Assembly (NCBI GenBank): GCA_024408335.1
Contig: JAKSVB010000009.1
Location: forward strand, 1-64,000
Source of the DNA: Bacilli bacterium
Lineage (GTDB): Bacteria; Bacillota_I; Bacilli_A; RFN20; CAG-826
DNA length: 64,000 nucleotides
Direction: 5' to 3'
A program made the position numbers and the translations under genes. A model generated the notes under the pieces. It was given only the letters and a program-made list of their open reading frames with translations. It did no database searches and was not told the origin of the DNA. Shown here piece by piece: positions 5,859 to 46,524 of this stretch (position 1 is the first letter of the stretch; the number at the start of each line of letters is the position of its first letter).

Positions 5859-6062
5859 CTTTTTGTGGTTACGCCATAATACACAAAACGCTGCTTTGGC
5901 AGGTTTTTCAGTGCCTAGAATCTCGGATGTACCAATATAGAGCATTTTAGTTAAGAAGACCTTGCGCGCCAACTAGTCCTCTTACTCGTAACATCTTTTA
6001 GAATTTTTAAATATTTTGTCGTAATTACAGCATTCAAACACGTTGTATAATTGGAGGGCAAA

Positions 6063-6518
6063 ATGAAACAAGTTGACATCGAACGTTACTACAATCTTTA
6101 TTCGCAAGACGTCATGAATGTCGCTTATTTTTATCTTGGAAACAAAGAAGATGCGGAGGATGTCCTTGTCGAAACATTCATGAGAATGATGAACAAGTCG
6201 CCGATGCACTTAGGAAACATAAAGTCTTATTTATTAACGAGTGCATTCCATCTCTCTTATGATTCTTTAAGAAAAAAGAAAGCAGCGCCTCTTGATTTAG
6301 AAATCACCGCTTCGCCAATGCATAGCGAAGAAGTCGATGAATTAAGGAAAGCTTTGTTTGCTTTGCCTCCAAAAGATAAAGAGCCTTTGATTCTTTGTTA
6401 TATCGAAGGCTATGACGCAAAAGAAGCTGCAAAGATTCTTTCCCTTTCTCTTTCAGCGTTAAACAAGAGACTAGAAAGAGGAAAGAAAATGCTTAAGGAG
6501 GCCCTTAAAGATGAATGA
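6063..6518 (+). CDS. ECF-type RNA polymerase sigma factor
   Basis: A 151-aa extracytoplasmic-function sigma-70 protein. Region 2 is at the N-terminus (YNLYSQDVMNVAYFYLGNKEDAEDVLVETF, where the 'D.EDV..ETF' helix binds the -10 element). Region 4 is at the C-terminus (LRKALFALPPKDKEPLILCYIEGYDAKEAAKILSLS..ALNKRLERGKKML), a helix-turn-helix for the -35 element. The start at 6063 follows the Shine-Dalgarno GGAGGG (6053-6058). The gene overlaps the serpin gene by 8 nt, so the two are translationally coupled in the usual sigma/anti-sigma arrangement. A TATAAT at 6046-6051 may be its own -10 box. Confidence 0.9.
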   Translation: MKQVDIERYYNLYSQDVMNVAYFYLGNKEDAEDVLVETFMRMMNKSPMHLGNIKSYLLTSAFHLSYDSLRKKKAAPLDLEITASPMHSEEVDELRKALFALPPKDKEPLILCYIEGYDAKEAAKILSLSLSALNKRLERGKKMLKEALKDE

Positions 6519-8004
6519 AGGTATTGAAAGCAAGATTGAGTCTTTAAAGGATGAAGCACCTAAAACAAAAGGCTCATTCCGCTTATTCCAAAAGAACGTT
6601 GAAGCGAAAACGGAATCAAGAAGGAAAAGAAATAAAAAGAGAATCATCAGAAGAAGCATCGTATTCGCTTCAATTGCTTCTCTTCTCGTTTTGGGAATCG
6701 GAAGCATGTTTTTCGAAGTCAAAAAAGAGACAAGGGATCTATCAAAACGCTTTTCATATAACGAATTTAGACTTGCGGAAAACGAAACCTTCAAACGCCT
6801 AAACGATTTCAAATACCCAGAAGGAGGAGAAGTCCAAAGAGTGTCGCCTGAATACGAAAAGGCGATGAATGAATTCGCTTTTGATTTGTATTCGAACGTA
6901 GAATCAAGGGAAAACATCATCATTAATCCATTCACTTCATATCTCCAGCTCGACTTAATAAGCCATGGGGCATCAAACAACACCCTAAAAGAAGCATTCG
7001 ATTCCGCTCTCCATCTTTCTTCAGACGAAAGAGATGAGAATTTCCTTAAAGCGTTTTTGACTAACCGCGACAAAGGAAGCGATTCGACTAGCCACATCGA
7101 AACATATAACGCTGCATTCCTTGATAATAAATATGTCTTCAAGACCGATTATTTGGATTATCTTACTTCCAGATACTGCGAGGCTTATTCTTTTGATATC
7201 AAAAGTCCAAAAGACGTGTCTTTGATGACGAATTGGGCTAACCAAAGGGCGAAGGAGGTTTCTATTTCTCCATCTGACTTTTCTTTCTCTGAGAGATCTG
7301 CTTTGGTGTTCCTTAGCACCATGAACTTCAAAGGAAAATGGGGATTTAACAAAAAAGACACGAAGGATATGACCTTCTACACAAAGGAAGGAACCGAAGT
7401 CGTTGTTCCAGGCATGAAACACGCTTATATCGGAAGCGCCTACCAATATGATGGATATTGGTCTTTCAATATGCATTTCTATGGAGGATACGCAATCCAG
7501 TTCCTAACCCCAGACAAAAGAGAAGATGACATTCATACGCTCCTAAAAGGAAAGAACTTCTTCTTTGAAAAAGAAGAAAACAAATACGTTCCAAAGAATC
7601 GTCAGCCATATCATGACTCTCTAAGTAGTCTTAGTTACATTATCGACGTCACTCTTCCAAGATTCAAAAACAGCAATAAGGTTTCCTTCGAAAATGCCTT
7701 CAAAGCAATGGGGTTATCTAGCGTTTATAATCCATCCTTGTCTTTAGGAAACATGTTTGAGGAGAAGACGCCTAGCGGAAATGATTTGTATGTTTGGGTT
7801 GAAGAATCGAAACAAACCAATTCTGTTTCATGGGACGAAGATGGCGTTGTGGCTTCGACAATCGAAGCGAAGAATTTCGCCGCTGGAGCAGCGATGGAGA
7901 TGAGAAATGGAGTGTCTTTCACTTTCGATTCGCCATTCGTTTATGTCATTCGTGACCGCAATAACCTTCCAATCTACGTCGGAAGCGTTGATAACTTTAA
8001 GTAA
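6511..8004 (+). CDS. Membrane-anchored serpin, candidate anti-sigma partner
   Basis: A 497-aa protein with three parts: a highly charged cytoplasmic segment (1-48), one membrane helix (about 49-70, IVFASIASLLVLGIGSMFF), and an extracellular serpin domain (about 110-497). Serpin landmarks include NPFTSYLQLDLISHGASNNT, the breach/shutter strand SALVFLSTMNFKGKW, DVTLPRFK, the hinge DEDGVVAST (442-450), and the closing strand FDSPFVYVIRD..PIYVGSV. If the hinge E443 is P17, the scissile P1 is near G459. P14 is Val and P8 is Glu rather than the usual Thr/Ala, so true protease inhibition is uncertain. Overlap with the ECF sigma gene suggests the cytoplasmic part binds the sigma factor; this is inference, as no zinc-finger anti-sigma motif is seen. 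Confidence 0.85.
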   Translation: MNEGIESKIESLKDEAPKTKGSFRLFQKNVEAKTESRRKRNKKRIIRRSIVFASIASLLVLGIGSMFFEVKKETRDLSKRFSYNEFRLAENETFKRLNDFKYPEGGEVQRVSPEYEKAMNEFAFDLYSNVESRENIIINPFTSYLQLDLISHGASNNTLKEAFDSALHLSSDERDENFLKAFLTNRDKGSDSTSHIETYNAAFLDNKYVFKTDYLDYLTSRYCEAYSFDIKSPKDVSLMTNWANQRAKEVSISPSDFSFSERSALVFLSTMNFKGKWGFNKKDTKDMTFYTKEGTEVVVPGMKHAYIGSAYQYDGYWSFNMHFYGGYAIQFLTPDKREDDIHTLLKGKNFFFEKEENKYVPKNRQPYHDSLSSLSYIIDVTLPRFKNSNKVSFENAFKAMGLSSVYNPSLSLGNMFEEKTPSGNDLYVWVEESKQTNSVSWDEDGVVASTIEAKNFAAGAAMEMRNGVSFTFDSPFVYVIRDRNNLPIYVGSVDNFK

Positions 8005-8082: not shown

Positions 8083-9744
8083 ATGAAAAACAAGAAATCT
8101 TTTTTACTTTTAGCTCTACCTGTTTTAGCCTTGTCTGCCTGTGGACCAAAACAAAATCGTCCAATTTACGACGAGGAGGATGAAGATAAGCCTCTTGAAA
8201 TCGGAGATACAGTAAGGGAATGGTCGTCAAATAGCGACTTTGATAAATTGCCTCTTGGAGTTGCGAATAACAAAGGAAGAGGAACGATCGTCACCGATAC
8301 CGGAAACGATGACTCCTGCTCTTTGTCTTTCACTCTTTCAGGAAATGGATATATCGGAAGCGACGCTGTAAGTGAAGCGTATTTCACCGAGGATGACGCT
8401 AAAAACGGAGACATCATCTCTCTTTGGTACCTTCTTCCTCAAGAACATAACATCAAAACCCTCAAACTCGAAGCGACCACTTCAAATAACGCTACGGTGG
8501 ATGGCGATTCGAAAACCATCGAAGCAGGGGATGAAGACATTTGGACAAGAATGGTCCTTAGCTATGACACCCTTGATACATTAGGCTCAATTAGACTTAA
8601 CTACACCCTCGAAGATCCTTCTAAAGAAGGAAAGATCATCCTCGACGACATCAACATCACCTTTGGCGAAGAAACCGTCAAAACAGATTACGAATATAAC
8701 GACGAAAGCCTTTACCAAAAATACGAAGGATATTTCAAAGTCGGCGGATGTCTTTCTAACGGCATGCTTAAGAACACCGAAATCAGAAAACTAACAAAAC
8801 ACAACTTCAATTCAATTACCGCTGAAAACGAAGGCAAGCCTGAGCAAATCCTTGATCAAGCTGCCTGTCAAGAAGCCGCAAGAAGCGATAACTCGGCAGT
8901 CGTCATCAAAACATCGCCTTTTGAAAAGCTCTATAACTGGGCAGAAGCAAGCCATATAGGAGTAAGACACCACACCTTCGCTTGGTATTCGCAAACCCCA
9001 GCTTGGTTCTTCACGACCGACTATACCCAAAACGGACCTCAAGCCAGTAGAGAGCTCATGCTTTCAAGACTTGAAAACTTCATCGGCGTGACAATGGATA
9101 CCATCAATGAAAGATGGCCAGGACTTGTCTACGCTATCGACGTCGCAAATGAAGCGGTTGAAAATGGACACGTCAGAAACACCAATAACAAATGGACTGA
9201 CACCGTTGGCGAAGACTTTGTCTACCACGCTTTCAAATATGCTTATGAGCACAAAGCCGAAGACCAAGAACTCTATTACAACGACTTCTCATTCGACTAT
9301 CAGCCAAGCAACTGTCGCTTCGCTCTTAATAACGTCTTAAAAGATGCTATCACCGAAGGCCTTATCGACGGCGTTGGTATCCAAGGCCACCTTGATTCAA
9401 ACGCCAACATGGATAACGTTATCCAAGACGCTAAGATGATCAAAGAAAAAGGTCTTAAGTGTCAAATCACCGAGCTTGATATCACGATTAATGGCAATAG
9501 TGAAAGCGAACTCAACCAACAAAAGAAGGCGTACAAAGACCTCATCAAGCGTGTTCTTGAGAACAATGACTCAGGACAAACCGACATTAACGCTGTCATC
9601 GTTTGGGGGACAACCGATAACACTTCCTGGAAGAGAAACCAAAACCCACTCCTCTTCACAAACGATTATGGCAAGAAACCTTGCTATTATGGCTTCCTCG
9701 AAGCTCTTGATGAAGCTAACATCACTCGCGAAGAAGAAGAGTAA
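8083..9744 (+). CDS. Lipoprotein endo-1,4-beta-xylanase, glycoside hydrolase family 10
   Basis: A 553-aa surface lipoprotein (lipobox LSAC in MKNKKSFLLLALPVLALSAC). Residues about 45-195 form a carbohydrate-binding-like beta-sandwich (WSSNSDFDKLPLGV...GKIILDDINITFG). Residues about 210-545 form the GH10 TIM barrel. Family motifs are GCLSNGML...FNSITAENEGKPE, VRHHTFAWYSQTPAWFF, the acid/base Glu in DVANEA (E357) and the nucleophile Glu in CQITELDI (E464). It cleaves xylan at the cell surface. The Shine-Dalgarno AGAGGGA precedes the ATG. It lies 78 bp after the serpin gene, beyond a terminator, so control by the sigma factor is possible but would need a separate promoter. Confidence 0.93.
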   Translation: MKNKKSFLLLALPVLALSACGPKQNRPIYDEEDEDKPLEIGDTVREWSSNSDFDKLPLGVANNKGRGTIVTDTGNDDSCSLSFTLSGNGYIGSDAVSEAYFTEDDAKNGDIISLWYLLPQEHNIKTLKLEATTSNNATVDGDSKTIEAGDEDIWTRMVLSYDTLDTLGSIRLNYTLEDPSKEGKIILDDINITFGEETVKTDYEYNDESLYQKYEGYFKVGGCLSNGMLKNTEIRKLTKHNFNSITAENEGKPEQILDQAACQEAARSDNSAVVIKTSPFEKLYNWAEASHIGVRHHTFAWYSQTPAWFFTTDYTQNGPQASRELMLSRLENFIGVTMDTINERWPGLVYAIDVANEAVENGHVRNTNNKWTDTVGEDFVYHAFKYAYEHKAEDQELYYNDFSFDYQPSNCRFALNNVLKDAITEGLIDGVGIQGHLDSNANMDNVIQDAKMIKEKGLKCQITELDITINGNSESELNQQKKAYKDLIKRVLENNDSGQTDINAVIVWGTTDNTSWKRNQNPLLFTNDYGKKPCYYGFLEALDEANITREEEE

Positions 9745-43703: not shown

Positions 43704-44429
43704 ATGATATTTTTCGATAGAACGACTGCGGTCGTAGAAAAGACACTCAAAGATCTCTCGAGGATCTCTTTTGTCATCACAATCGTCGTTCAAGTTTTCT
43801 TTTTAATCCTTTACGGATATAAGATCTATATCAACTTATTCGATCACCCATATTACCTTGCTATCTATTCAACTCTCGCTGTTGTTTCTATTTTCGGTTT
43901 TATCTTCTTCTTAGTGACTCACAAAAACAGAAACGAAAAAGTGGTTTTAGGCACAAACAGAGTCGTCCGTATCTGCAAATATTTTGCTAACGCAGCAGTG
44001 ATCGTCGTCGTTCTTATTGAATTCACCCAAAAGGACGTCACAGATCTCGATGTCGTCATTTCAGGCATTTCAATCGCATCTTTTGCTTTGCAAGTCGTCA
44101 TGGAATTCATCCGTGTCTTATACGAAAAATATAGCGAGCTTCTAAAAATCGCCCTTACCAAAGACCTTGAGAAATTTGACTTTGGAAAGAAGTTCTATGG
44201 CTCGATTGGCAAACCTATTGAGGCGCTTGCAAATAAGGTTAACGGCGTCAAAAAAGAAGAAAAAGAATTATCAAAAGCCGAAATTGAAGTCAATGAACTC
44301 ACAGAAGACTATAGAACAAGACAAAAAGAGACTAAGAGTGTCAAAAAGAAAGCGGTTCGTGACGAATTCTGGGGACACTTCAAGAGGATATTCCGCAGAG
44401 ATAAGAAAAACGAAGAAACCAAAGAGTGA
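43704..44429 (+). CDS. Membrane protein with cytoplasmic charged coiled-coil tail, unknown
   Basis: A 241-aa protein: four helices (about 17-38, 46-68, 85-103, 110-132) and a C-terminal charged region (150-241) with a probable coiled coil (EEKELSKAEIEVNELTEDYRTRQKE) and a basic end (KKKAVRDEFWGHFKRIFRRDKK). Shine-Dalgarno GAGG is present. No family is recognised. It is monocistronic, with a terminator at 44423. Confidence 0.6.
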   Translation: MIFFDRTTAVVEKTLKDLSRISFVITIVVQVFFLILYGYKIYINLFDHPYYLAIYSTLAVVSIFGFIFFLVTHKNRNEKVVLGTNRVVRICKYFANAAVIVVVLIEFTQKDVTDLDVVISGISIASFALQVVMEFIRVLYEKYSELLKIALTKDLEKFDFGKKFYGSIGKPIEALANKVNGVKKEEKELSKAEIEVNELTEDYRTRQKETKSVKKKAVRDEFWGHFKRIFRRDKKNEETKE

Positions 44430-44456
44430 ACGGCTAGGCTATTCACTCTTTTTTAT
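44423..44456 (+). terminator. Terminator overlapping the stop codon of the previous gene
   Basis: AGAGTGAA (44423-44430) / TTCACTCT (44442-44449), then TTTTTTA. Confidence 0.85.
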
Positions 44457-44508
44457 TTATAAAAAGAGGGCTATTATTATAGTAACGAAATTTTTTCGGA
44501 GGATTACC

Positions 44509-46524
44509 ATGAAACATAAACTTTTCTCTGCTTCAATGCTCTTGAGCGTTTTTGCTTTAGCTTCCTGTGGAACTGCTCCAGCAAATTCAGCTTCATCACA
44601 AAAAGCATCTTCAAATAGTTCATCAACAACAAGCGTCAAATCAGAATCGAGCCAAAGCTCATCATCTTCAGCTGTTAAGTCTTCATCAAGCTCATCAACT
44701 TCAAAGGCTTCTTCATCATCTTCAAAGACTTCTTCATCAAGCTCTAGCGCACCAGCTCCTCAAGATTTGACCATTCCTGCATTCGGTGACCCAGTCAATA
44801 CGGGAGAAGTCGCGCCAACTATGCCTTCACCTCTTGGTTCAGATGGAAAACACCCTGCAACCAACGAAAGGCCAAAGGATAAATTCACTAACAACTTCCT
44901 TAGGCTTTTCGCTTATGACTCAGCGCCACAAATCTACCTCAACTTCAACAAGACAACTTTGAAGGCAATGTCAGATTGGCAAAACAACAGAGACCAACGT
45001 AAAGTTTATGATGTTTATTTCCCTGCAAACTTCCGTCTTGTCTTAGATGGCACAACATATGATTTCCCAGAGGTCGGTGTTCGTATGAAAGGTAACTGGT
45101 CACGTAAAAAGATCGTTGACGACAGAGGCAACATCGTTAACACCTCACACCTTAAGATTTCATTTAAAGCTACATTCGATGACGAAATCTATGACTACAA
45201 TGGTCCTTTAGCATATGGCAACCAAGGTGGTGCGTGGGGCCAAACAGGCACAAATGTCGACCTTAGACCATTCAAACACGATTGGACAGGCCACGATGAA
45301 GAAAGACAAGCAAGAAAAGACCGTAAGCTCTTCGGCATGGATAAGATTGACCTCAAAGTCACTCCACGTAACAATGCCCAAGGTACAGGCAGCAACAACA
45401 ACGCCTGTATCAGCCGTGAAGTCTATAGCTACGACCGTTTCCGTGAAAACGGACTTCTCGCTCCATATTCAAACCTTTCAACAGTTACCCTCAACAACGG
45501 TTCAACCTCAATCACAGGCGCTTACCAAATCGTCGAATGTGTTGATAAGGCTTTCTTAAAGAAACGTTTCGGCGATACAGATTCAAAAGGCGATCTTTAC
45601 AAGTGCGCTAAAAACACCAATGGTGTTCGTGCAAACTTCGATCTCAATAACGCAGTTGACGGTAACACCAAAGATACAGACGGCTTCATCAACGCTCCAC
45701 GTAAAGCAAACGGCATCATTGGCTGCGAAGACAACTTCGCTGGCTATGATCCAGTCTACCAACTTAAAACAAACGATGACCTTCTCGAGAATTCAAACTT
45801 CAGCAAACTTTCTAACGTTATCGGCGCTCTTTCATCAATCGTCACCGACAACATCACAGCAGAAAAGAAGCAAACCAAGCTCAATAGCCTCATCGATGTT
45901 GACTATTTCTTAAAATTCAGCGCCCTCTCATATCTTATGGGTAACTGCGATGACCAACGTTATGCGGGTAATAACTTCTATGTCTACTTCATCCCATCAA
46001 CTGGCAAGATGATTCATATCGCATATGACTGGGACTGGTGCTTAGGCGCATCATACACCGGCTTCGATATGACTAAGCTCAACCCATTCGATACCTATGT
46101 TCCAGAAGGCGGAAATGAAAACTTCAGCGATCAAACTGAAAACCAAAACGCTTATCAACAAAGTCAAAACGTCACATTCACTGGTCCTTCAAGCACAAAC
46201 GATAGAATCAACGCTAACTACAAGAACAACCTTTACTGGGCAACCATGTTAACTCCAACTTCATCAAAGAGTGGCGCTAACACCGGAACATTAAGCTACA
46301 TCAACGGTTACCAGAACACATATCTTAGATACTGCAGAGATTTAGCTGACAGCGCTCTTAGCACAACTGATTTCGGAACTATCAACACAACCTTGAAGTC
46401 AAAATTTGGCACTCTTAAGTTAACCGAAGAGAAGAACGTTACAAATAACTTCATCACTGCTCGTAAGACTGCTCTTACTAGATACATCGCGGCTCACCCA
46501 ATCACTGAGAGCTCAGCAAACTAA
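44509..46524 (+). CDS. CotH-family lipoprotein (protein kinase-like)
   Basis: A 671-aa lipoprotein. The ATG at 44509 follows CGGAGGA. The signal peptide ends in the lipobox LASC (MKHKLFSASMLLSVFALASC). A Ser/Lys-rich low-complexity linker (about 25-85) places the domain away from the membrane. The CotH domain covers about 120-640, with GVRMKGNWSRKK, RLFGMDKIDLK, and the catalytic-type IAYDWDWCLG (near 505-515), which matches the CotH 'YD.DW' motif. CotH kinases phosphorylate surface proteins with ATP. It is followed after 12 bp by a TPM-domain gene in the same operon. Confidence 0.85.
   Translation: MKHKLFSASMLLSVFALASCGTAPANSASSQKASSNSSSTTSVKSESSQSSSSSAVKSSSSSSTSKASSSSSKTSSSSSSAPAPQDLTIPAFGDPVNTGEVAPTMPSPLGSDGKHPATNERPKDKFTNNFLRLFAYDSAPQIYLNFNKTTLKAMSDWQNNRDQRKVYDVYFPANFRLVLDGTTYDFPEVGVRMKGNWSRKKIVDDRGNIVNTSHLKISFKATFDDEIYDYNGPLAYGNQGGAWGQTGTNVDLRPFKHDWTGHDEERQARKDRKLFGMDKIDLKVTPRNNAQGTGSNNNACISREVYSYDRFRENGLLAPYSNLSTVTLNNGSTSITGAYQIVECVDKAFLKKRFGDTDSKGDLYKCAKNTNGVRANFDLNNAVDGNTKDTDGFINAPRKANGIIGCEDNFAGYDPVYQLKTNDDLLENSNFSKLSNVIGALSSIVTDNITAEKKQTKLNSLIDVDYFLKFSALSYLMGNCDDQRYAGNNFYVYFIPSTGKMIHIAYDWDWCLGASYTGFDMTKLNPFDTYVPEGGNENFSDQTENQNAYQQSQNVTFTGPSSTNDRINANYKNNLYWATMLTPTSSKSGANTGTLSYINGYQNTYLRYCRDLADSALSTTDFGTINTTLKSKFGTLKLTEEKNVTNNFITARKTALTRYIAAHPITESSAN

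Follow-up and report, generated by a model that had tools for sequence, protein, structure and literature searches.

Our results suggest that serpins, the spring-loaded protease traps best known from blood plasma, serve some bacteria as sensors of transmembrane anti-sigma factors. The case described here is a pair of genes on the forward strand of a 64,000-nucleotide stretch of DNA from a Bacilli bacterium (contig JAKSVB010000009.1, positions 1 to 64,000; the whole stretch is called the window below). The first gene (6063–6518) encodes an extracytoplasmic function (ECF) sigma factor. The second gene (6511–8004) starts with an ATG inside the sigma reading frame and encodes a membrane-anchored serpin protein of 497 amino acids (aa), a putative anti-sigma factor. 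It is very likely that the serpin protein has an anti-sigma role. With less confidence, we consider it probable on balance that the two proteins form a switch: a transmembrane anti-sigma factor would sense with an external serpin, and attack of a protease on the reactive loop would release the sigma factor. That a protease acting on the loop is the signal is a view we favor only slightly.

The sigma gene specifies 151 aa from its ATG; an alternative TTG start at 6051 is possible. Open reading frame, Pfam (Sigma70_r2, E = 1.4e-9; Sigma70_r4_2, E = 2.2e-12), TIGR02937 (sigma70-ECF, above cut-off, E = 7e-19) and our sigma factor alignment (A1) agree on a protein with regions 2 and 4 and no region 3, the make-up of group 4 (ECF) sigma factors of about 20 kDa. 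Its N-terminus is shorter than in its relatives (151 versus about 155–190 aa in A1). By Pfam, the window genome (1.35 Mb) encodes a single serpin and two proteins with sigma region 2: the window ECF factor and a long one, probably RpoD.

The serpin protein begins with a putative anti-sigma module, a cytoplasmic tail of 48 residues (6511–6654) with a predicted helix at residues 2–15 that is followed by a strongly basic part; the net charge is +8 over the 15 residues preceding the membrane. A single transmembrane helix covers residues 49–69 or thereabouts (6655–6717; hydropathy 2.3 over 19 residues, model helix 45–67). The extracellular linker, residues 70–117 (6718–6861), contains a stretch from F81 to P103 that is conserved in the main clade of paired proteins. 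The rest is a complete serpin domain (residues 118–494, 6862–7992), identified by Pfam (E = 5.5e-41, 141 bits, profile positions 2–368 of 370), by sequence matches in the PDB and by fold. An AlphaFold2 model from a shallow alignment has a predicted local distance difference test (pLDDT) score of 59 overall and mostly 50–90 in the serpin part, with loop 446–465 unstructured. Foldseek nevertheless places serpins on top for this model (serpin K, PAI-1, tengpin and miropin; E = 3.8e-21, TM-score 0.73 by target length). A relative with closer homologues gives a better model (pLDDT 73, serpin body mostly 75–92), with an exposed loop at 446–461 and a tail helix at 2–17. An earlier note, made from the window sequence, had described an ECF sigma gene overlapping a serpin gene by 8 nucleotides (nt), and a serpin protein with a charged cytoplasmic tail, one membrane helix and a full serpin domain outside. 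The two reading frames bear out the former, and charge, hydropathy and Pfam the latter.

The same note had proposed, as a check, to look for other ECF genes with a downstream membrane serpin. For this we took the flanks of nearly all serpin genes across 224 genomes of the same family as the window genome, mostly metagenome-assembled genomes (MAGs). A search of genome contigs with a single protein gave no relatives, and alignment A2 was too diverse to scan with; an alignment of the clade succeeded. Of 131 serpin reading frames, 57 start right at the end of an ECF sigma gene (54 genomes, 15 genera), with a spacing between −14 and +26 nt. The others comprise 62 frames without an ECF gene, eight at contig ends and four with an ECF gene elsewhere nearby. 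Paired ECF factors are 15–28% and paired serpin proteins 14–39% identical to their window counterparts; the sequences thus indicate that the ECF–serpin pairs are old. Another 15 pairs come from outside the family: three further families of the same order contribute, and so does one from elsewhere in the class. The total is 72 pairs in five families, all with the two genes in the same order and orientation and close together (the samples of order and class have genomes in common, and that of the class is partial). Hence the serpin gene stands directly after, and is coupled to, an ECF gene over many genomes, as genes of anti-sigma factors do. The carriers that have names are for the most part MAGs of rumen or gut origin with the labels Erysipelotrichaceae, Bacillales or Bacilli (RUG266, SIG220, yak omasum, horse faeces). 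A phylum-level search, in which other classes were apparently represented by few genomes, found no pairs beyond the class, and two clostridial serpins (L200 and L201) showed no ECF pairing. No conserved third gene, such as a protease of the system's own or a separate anti-sigma gene, was found near the pairs.

All 57 paired proteins have a tail of 35–56 aa and a transmembrane helix (mean hydropathy 2.4). Judged by charge, the N-terminus is inside in 52 of them; five are ties and none is reversed. A cytoplasmic N-terminal tail, one membrane helix and an exterior sensor together make up the layout of an anti-sigma factor, a likeness of anatomy only. Serpins of the family without an ECF partner have, in contrast, a signal peptide near the start. 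Two serpins inside the main paired clade (L093 and L095) are without an ECF gene, and these have lost the tail as well: one is a lipoprotein and the other has a short unrelated tail.

Similar tails occur with other exteriors. Behind other ECF genes of these bacteria, at a comparable distance, stand genes for single-pass proteins whose short tails are similar but whose exteriors differ: one is a Pfam beta-propeller (E = 4e-107), some are diverged serpin-like domains and several others have no Pfam match. Homology of the tails extends across these exteriors. The tail of the beta-propeller protein L217 matches those of the serpin proteins L146 and L150 with z of about 9–10 over shuffles, L204 and L206 match L215 and L207, and L218 matches L214. 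Similarly, the A2 profile matches, through its positions 1–73 only, the N-terminus of a 754-aa protein adjoining another ECF factor. Distances between tails also follow distances between ECF factors (r = 0.84; the partial correlation, controlling for serpin distance, is 0.54; permutation p < 0.001 in a Mantel test, which does not fully remove shared ancestry). At L217 itself, the ECF gene is followed by a single-pass protein with a PF09826 exterior and a tail homologous to those of the serpin-bearing partners. The exteriors of many other ECF partners have no Pfam match at all.

On the serpin tree, the label paired or unpaired changes 10 times, versus about 41 times in shuffles. Paired clades stand at several places of the tree, two of them nested among secreted serpins. 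Hence serpins entered the anti-sigma slot several times, by at least three or four separate recruitments.

An ECF-type promoter lies upstream of many of the sigma genes. Its form depends on the clade: CGAC(A/G)AA-N16-GT(T/C)TTATT, with CGACAAA-N16-GTTTTATT in one clade, or CGAACGTTTT-N13-GTATTA. A strict search in 21 genomes yielded 23 matches and its reversed control one; 21 of the 23 precede the serpin-paired sigma gene itself, and in any one genome the promoter has hardly a second copy. One match, the only second copy in its genome (G046), is located 29 nt upstream of the gene for a secreted lipoprotein serpin. The second promoter pattern was found nine times in 12 genomes, eight times at the genomes' own sigma genes and once at a further ECF gene fragment. 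These matches fit sigma factors that control their own genes in relatives of the window pair, and serpin production as an output in one genome. The remaining match of the strict search, a second copy in another genome, stands 20 nt before a 190-aa putative lipoprotein (L295, G137:C22:20150).

We also considered a general control of secreted serpins by these sigma factors, which is unsupported beyond the one genome with the exact promoter match. Nine secreted serpin genes (L126, L127, L130, L135–L137, L139, L039 and L049) have, roughly 15–40 nt upstream, an ECF-like promoter of another type (about AACAG/AGCAG ... TCGTCTTAAT or CGTCTAG); other sigma factors may therefore drive them. Secreted serpin genes also occur in tandem arrays of two to three (L097, L098, L110, L119, L122 and L125).

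Because of the pairing, the loss of the tail together with the ECF gene, the shared tails, their co-variation with the sigma factors and the promoter, we take it as very probable that the tail acts as the anti-sigma module, with the serpin as sensor. As far as sequences can tell, the place of the serpin protein in the anti-sigma slot, the tail as anti-sigma module, the orientation with the N-terminus inside and autoregulation in relatives are strongly supported. The proposal of the earlier note that the serpin protein is the anti-sigma factor of this ECF sigma factor has gained support from the depth of the pairing, the shared and co-varying tails and the lack of any other conserved neighbor gene.

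How could such a switch work? Residues 1–48 would hold the sigma factor at the membrane, while the reactive loop of the serpin domain is exposed outside. Attack on the loop by a protease would cause loop insertion, or end in a trapped serpin–protease complex. The change in the serpin may then expose the linker, a candidate region for a site-1 cut, after which an M50 site-2 protease would cut the membrane helix, the tail would be degraded and the sigma factor freed. The window genome does encode a site-2 protease of the Peptidase_M50 family (E = 4e-50), but such proteins are near-universal and hence weak evidence. Release by regulated proteolysis is at least as likely as a mechanical pull on the membrane helix, which the earlier note had proposed to follow from cutting of the loop near G459; these mechanics are still a hypothesis. 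One could go further and argue that the serpin is a working sensor recruited several times from secreted inhibitors, that cleavage of the loop or covalent capture is itself the signal and that the cell answers with more serpin. To us this extended view is as easily doubted as believed.

Several observations weigh against the switch that we propose. Pfam finds no known anti-sigma domain in the tails of the 57 paired members, and the model confidence for the window tail is low. One family of the class (f17) has transmembrane-anchored serpins without a nearby ECF gene. Neither promoter motif is clearly present before the window sigma gene, and most secreted serpins are without the promoter of the sigma genes. 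An amphipathic switch helix, as in the lysozyme-sensing anti-sigma factor RsiV, is not supported, since the hydrophobic moment of the linker helix is not above that of shuffles. Another objection concerns the hinge of the reactive loop. In inhibitory serpins the canonical hinge, P17–P9, reads ExGTEAAAA. The main-clade hinge reads EDGT-x-(V/A)-K-S-x-T, without the canonical EAAAA, and none of the 42 members of the window clade is canonical at P12–P10. The window protein itself has EDGVVASTIE at P17–P8 (residues 443–452, 7837–7866), with an unusual Glu at P8.

Two of these points go with further observations. The f17 serpins (L265–L272) have no ECF gene within about 2.7 kb upstream, and most of them match the serpin profile in two separated blocks, which suggests an insert in the domain. 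Before the window sigma gene there is a ribosome-binding site, GGAGGG (6053–6058), and a possible −10 element, TTGTATAAT (6043–6051), similar to the −10 of related ECF promoters. This element is doubtful because a clear −35 is absent there and the ribosome-binding site is very near.

The hinge bears directly on an alternative in which the serpin-fold sensor stays uncleaved but has a ligand, be it a small molecule, a glycan, a peptide or a protein, so that binding or loop movement signals release. Binding ligands without being cleaved is known behavior of non-inhibitory serpins. The departure from the inhibitory consensus at P13–P10 in all 42 members of the window clade favors this alternative, as does a second group of ECF partners with very diverged serpin-like exteriors (L203, L205, L207, L209, L210, L214 and L215; E = 1e-17 to 1e-28, with no Pfam match for L209). 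Their hinge, of the type NGFYSCSAT, has a bulky P14, and they are therefore probably not inhibitory. However, the separately recruited paired clades keep a canonical hinge (GxEAAAxT) in 13 of 15 members. Within the main clade, the positions buried upon insertion (P14, P12, P10 and P8) are small or beta-branched in 31 of 42 members, as insertion would allow, and the hinge from P17 to P8 is among the most conserved parts (0.645 versus 0.452 for the serpin body), with P7–P3' slightly below the serpin-body average. The P15 Gly, Gly445 in the window protein, is invariant in all 124 aligned serpins. We regard ligand sensing without cleavage as unlikely. For the family as a whole, loop insertion is plausible, and in the clades with canonical hinges it is likely. 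Full insertion in the window's own protein is uncertain, because of the non-canonical hinge of its clade and the Glu at P8. Counting 14 residues on from Gly445 in the alignment places P1–P1' at Gly459–Ala460 (7885–7890), within the part that is disordered in the model (446–465). By our own count the window loop is about five residues longer than that of alpha-1-antitrypsin, so the exact cleaved bond is uncertain.

Alternatively, the serpin could inhibit the site-1 protease of its own pathway. Excess protease would then exhaust the inhibitor, and the system would register a threshold of protease load instead of being switched directly. The anatomy would be the same, and the idea accounts both for an inhibitor being used as a sensor and, as negative feedback, for the same promoter standing before a secreted serpin in one genome. 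With a non-canonical hinge in the window clade and no candidate for the site-1 protease, we find it quite improbable. Even less credible is that the protein is a surface-anchored inhibitor merely transcribed together with a sigma factor as its activator, with the tail as an anchor and the anti-sigma factor elsewhere. The ECF-less anchored serpins of f17 speak in its favor. Against it stand the tail common to serpin-less ECF partners, its loss along with the ECF gene, its co-variation with the ECF factor and the lack of another conserved neighbor gene. Finally, the conserved pairing already refutes the idea that the two genes are adjacent by chance.

Directly downstream of the serpin gene, at 8083–9744, the window encodes a GH10 xylanase-type enzyme with a lipoprotein-like signal, which is not conserved beside other pairs. 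Further away, the gene at 44167–46524 encodes 785 aa that include a CotH kinase domain (Pfam E = 8e-12).

How does the serpin switch compare with known systems? Class I or zinc anti-sigma domains are four-helix domains of about 100 aa, often with an HxxxCxxC motif. The tails, at 35–56 aa, are shorter than this, and no such domain was matched by Pfam in the 57 members. In RsgI–SigI of Clostridium thermocellum, as in the new pairs, membrane anti-sigma factors are modular and combine a single type of tail with exteriors that can be exchanged. RsgI senses polysaccharides, and neither its tail nor its sigma factor is of the same family as in the window pair. A closer fit in length are the class II anti-sigma domains such as CnrY, which have fewer than 50 aa and two helices (PMC7406223, PMC4598750). 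Like the window tail, CnrY is a very short helical cytoplasmic domain before one transmembrane helix, but it partners with the CnrX metal sensor and no serpin, and the likeness is one of length and anatomy alone; our models give one clear helix (2–15 or 2–17) at low to moderate confidence.

The closest working precedent is RsiV–SigV of Bacillus subtilis and Clostridioides difficile, and the new pair, by analogy, most likely works alike. The exterior of RsiV binds lysozyme, whereupon signal peptidase and RasP cut RsiV (PMC4183432, PMC5014341, PMC6066255). Like the window pair, RsiV–SigV combines an ECF sigma factor with a single-pass anti-sigma factor; its exterior makes direct contact with a secreted, hostile enzyme, and regulated intramembrane proteolysis sets the sigma factor free. 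The sensors differ: that of RsiV is a domain that binds lysozyme, with a DUF4179 stretch and amphipathic helices, that of the window pair is a serpin, and Pfam finds no DUF4179 in the 57 paired members.

A large serpin phylogeny describes some prokaryotic serpins as membrane-anchored and calls the functions of prokaryotic serpins enigmatic (PMC8233489). Bacterial serpins such as miropin, tengpin, the siropins and the Bifidobacterium serpin share the fold of the window serpin, but coupling to a sigma factor is described for none of them (PMC8233489). The earlier note knew of no anti-sigma factor with a serpin sensor, and in the open-access full-text literature we likewise found no relevant paper that links a serpin to an anti-sigma or ECF sigma factor. 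Hence, while the transmembrane ECF anti-sigma factor is of a known kind, the serpin would be a new type of sensor.

The pairs occur in a lineage of gut and rumen bacteria, most of which are uncultured. If our interpretation is true, one class of bacterial serpins, with functions that the literature calls enigmatic, would gain a role. It would also mean that the conformational spring of serpins can be used for transmembrane signalling, and that these bacteria have a protease sensor analogous to lysozyme sensing by RsiV. As a modular sensor, with one tail type and exchangeable exteriors, the system might serve as a protease biosensor.
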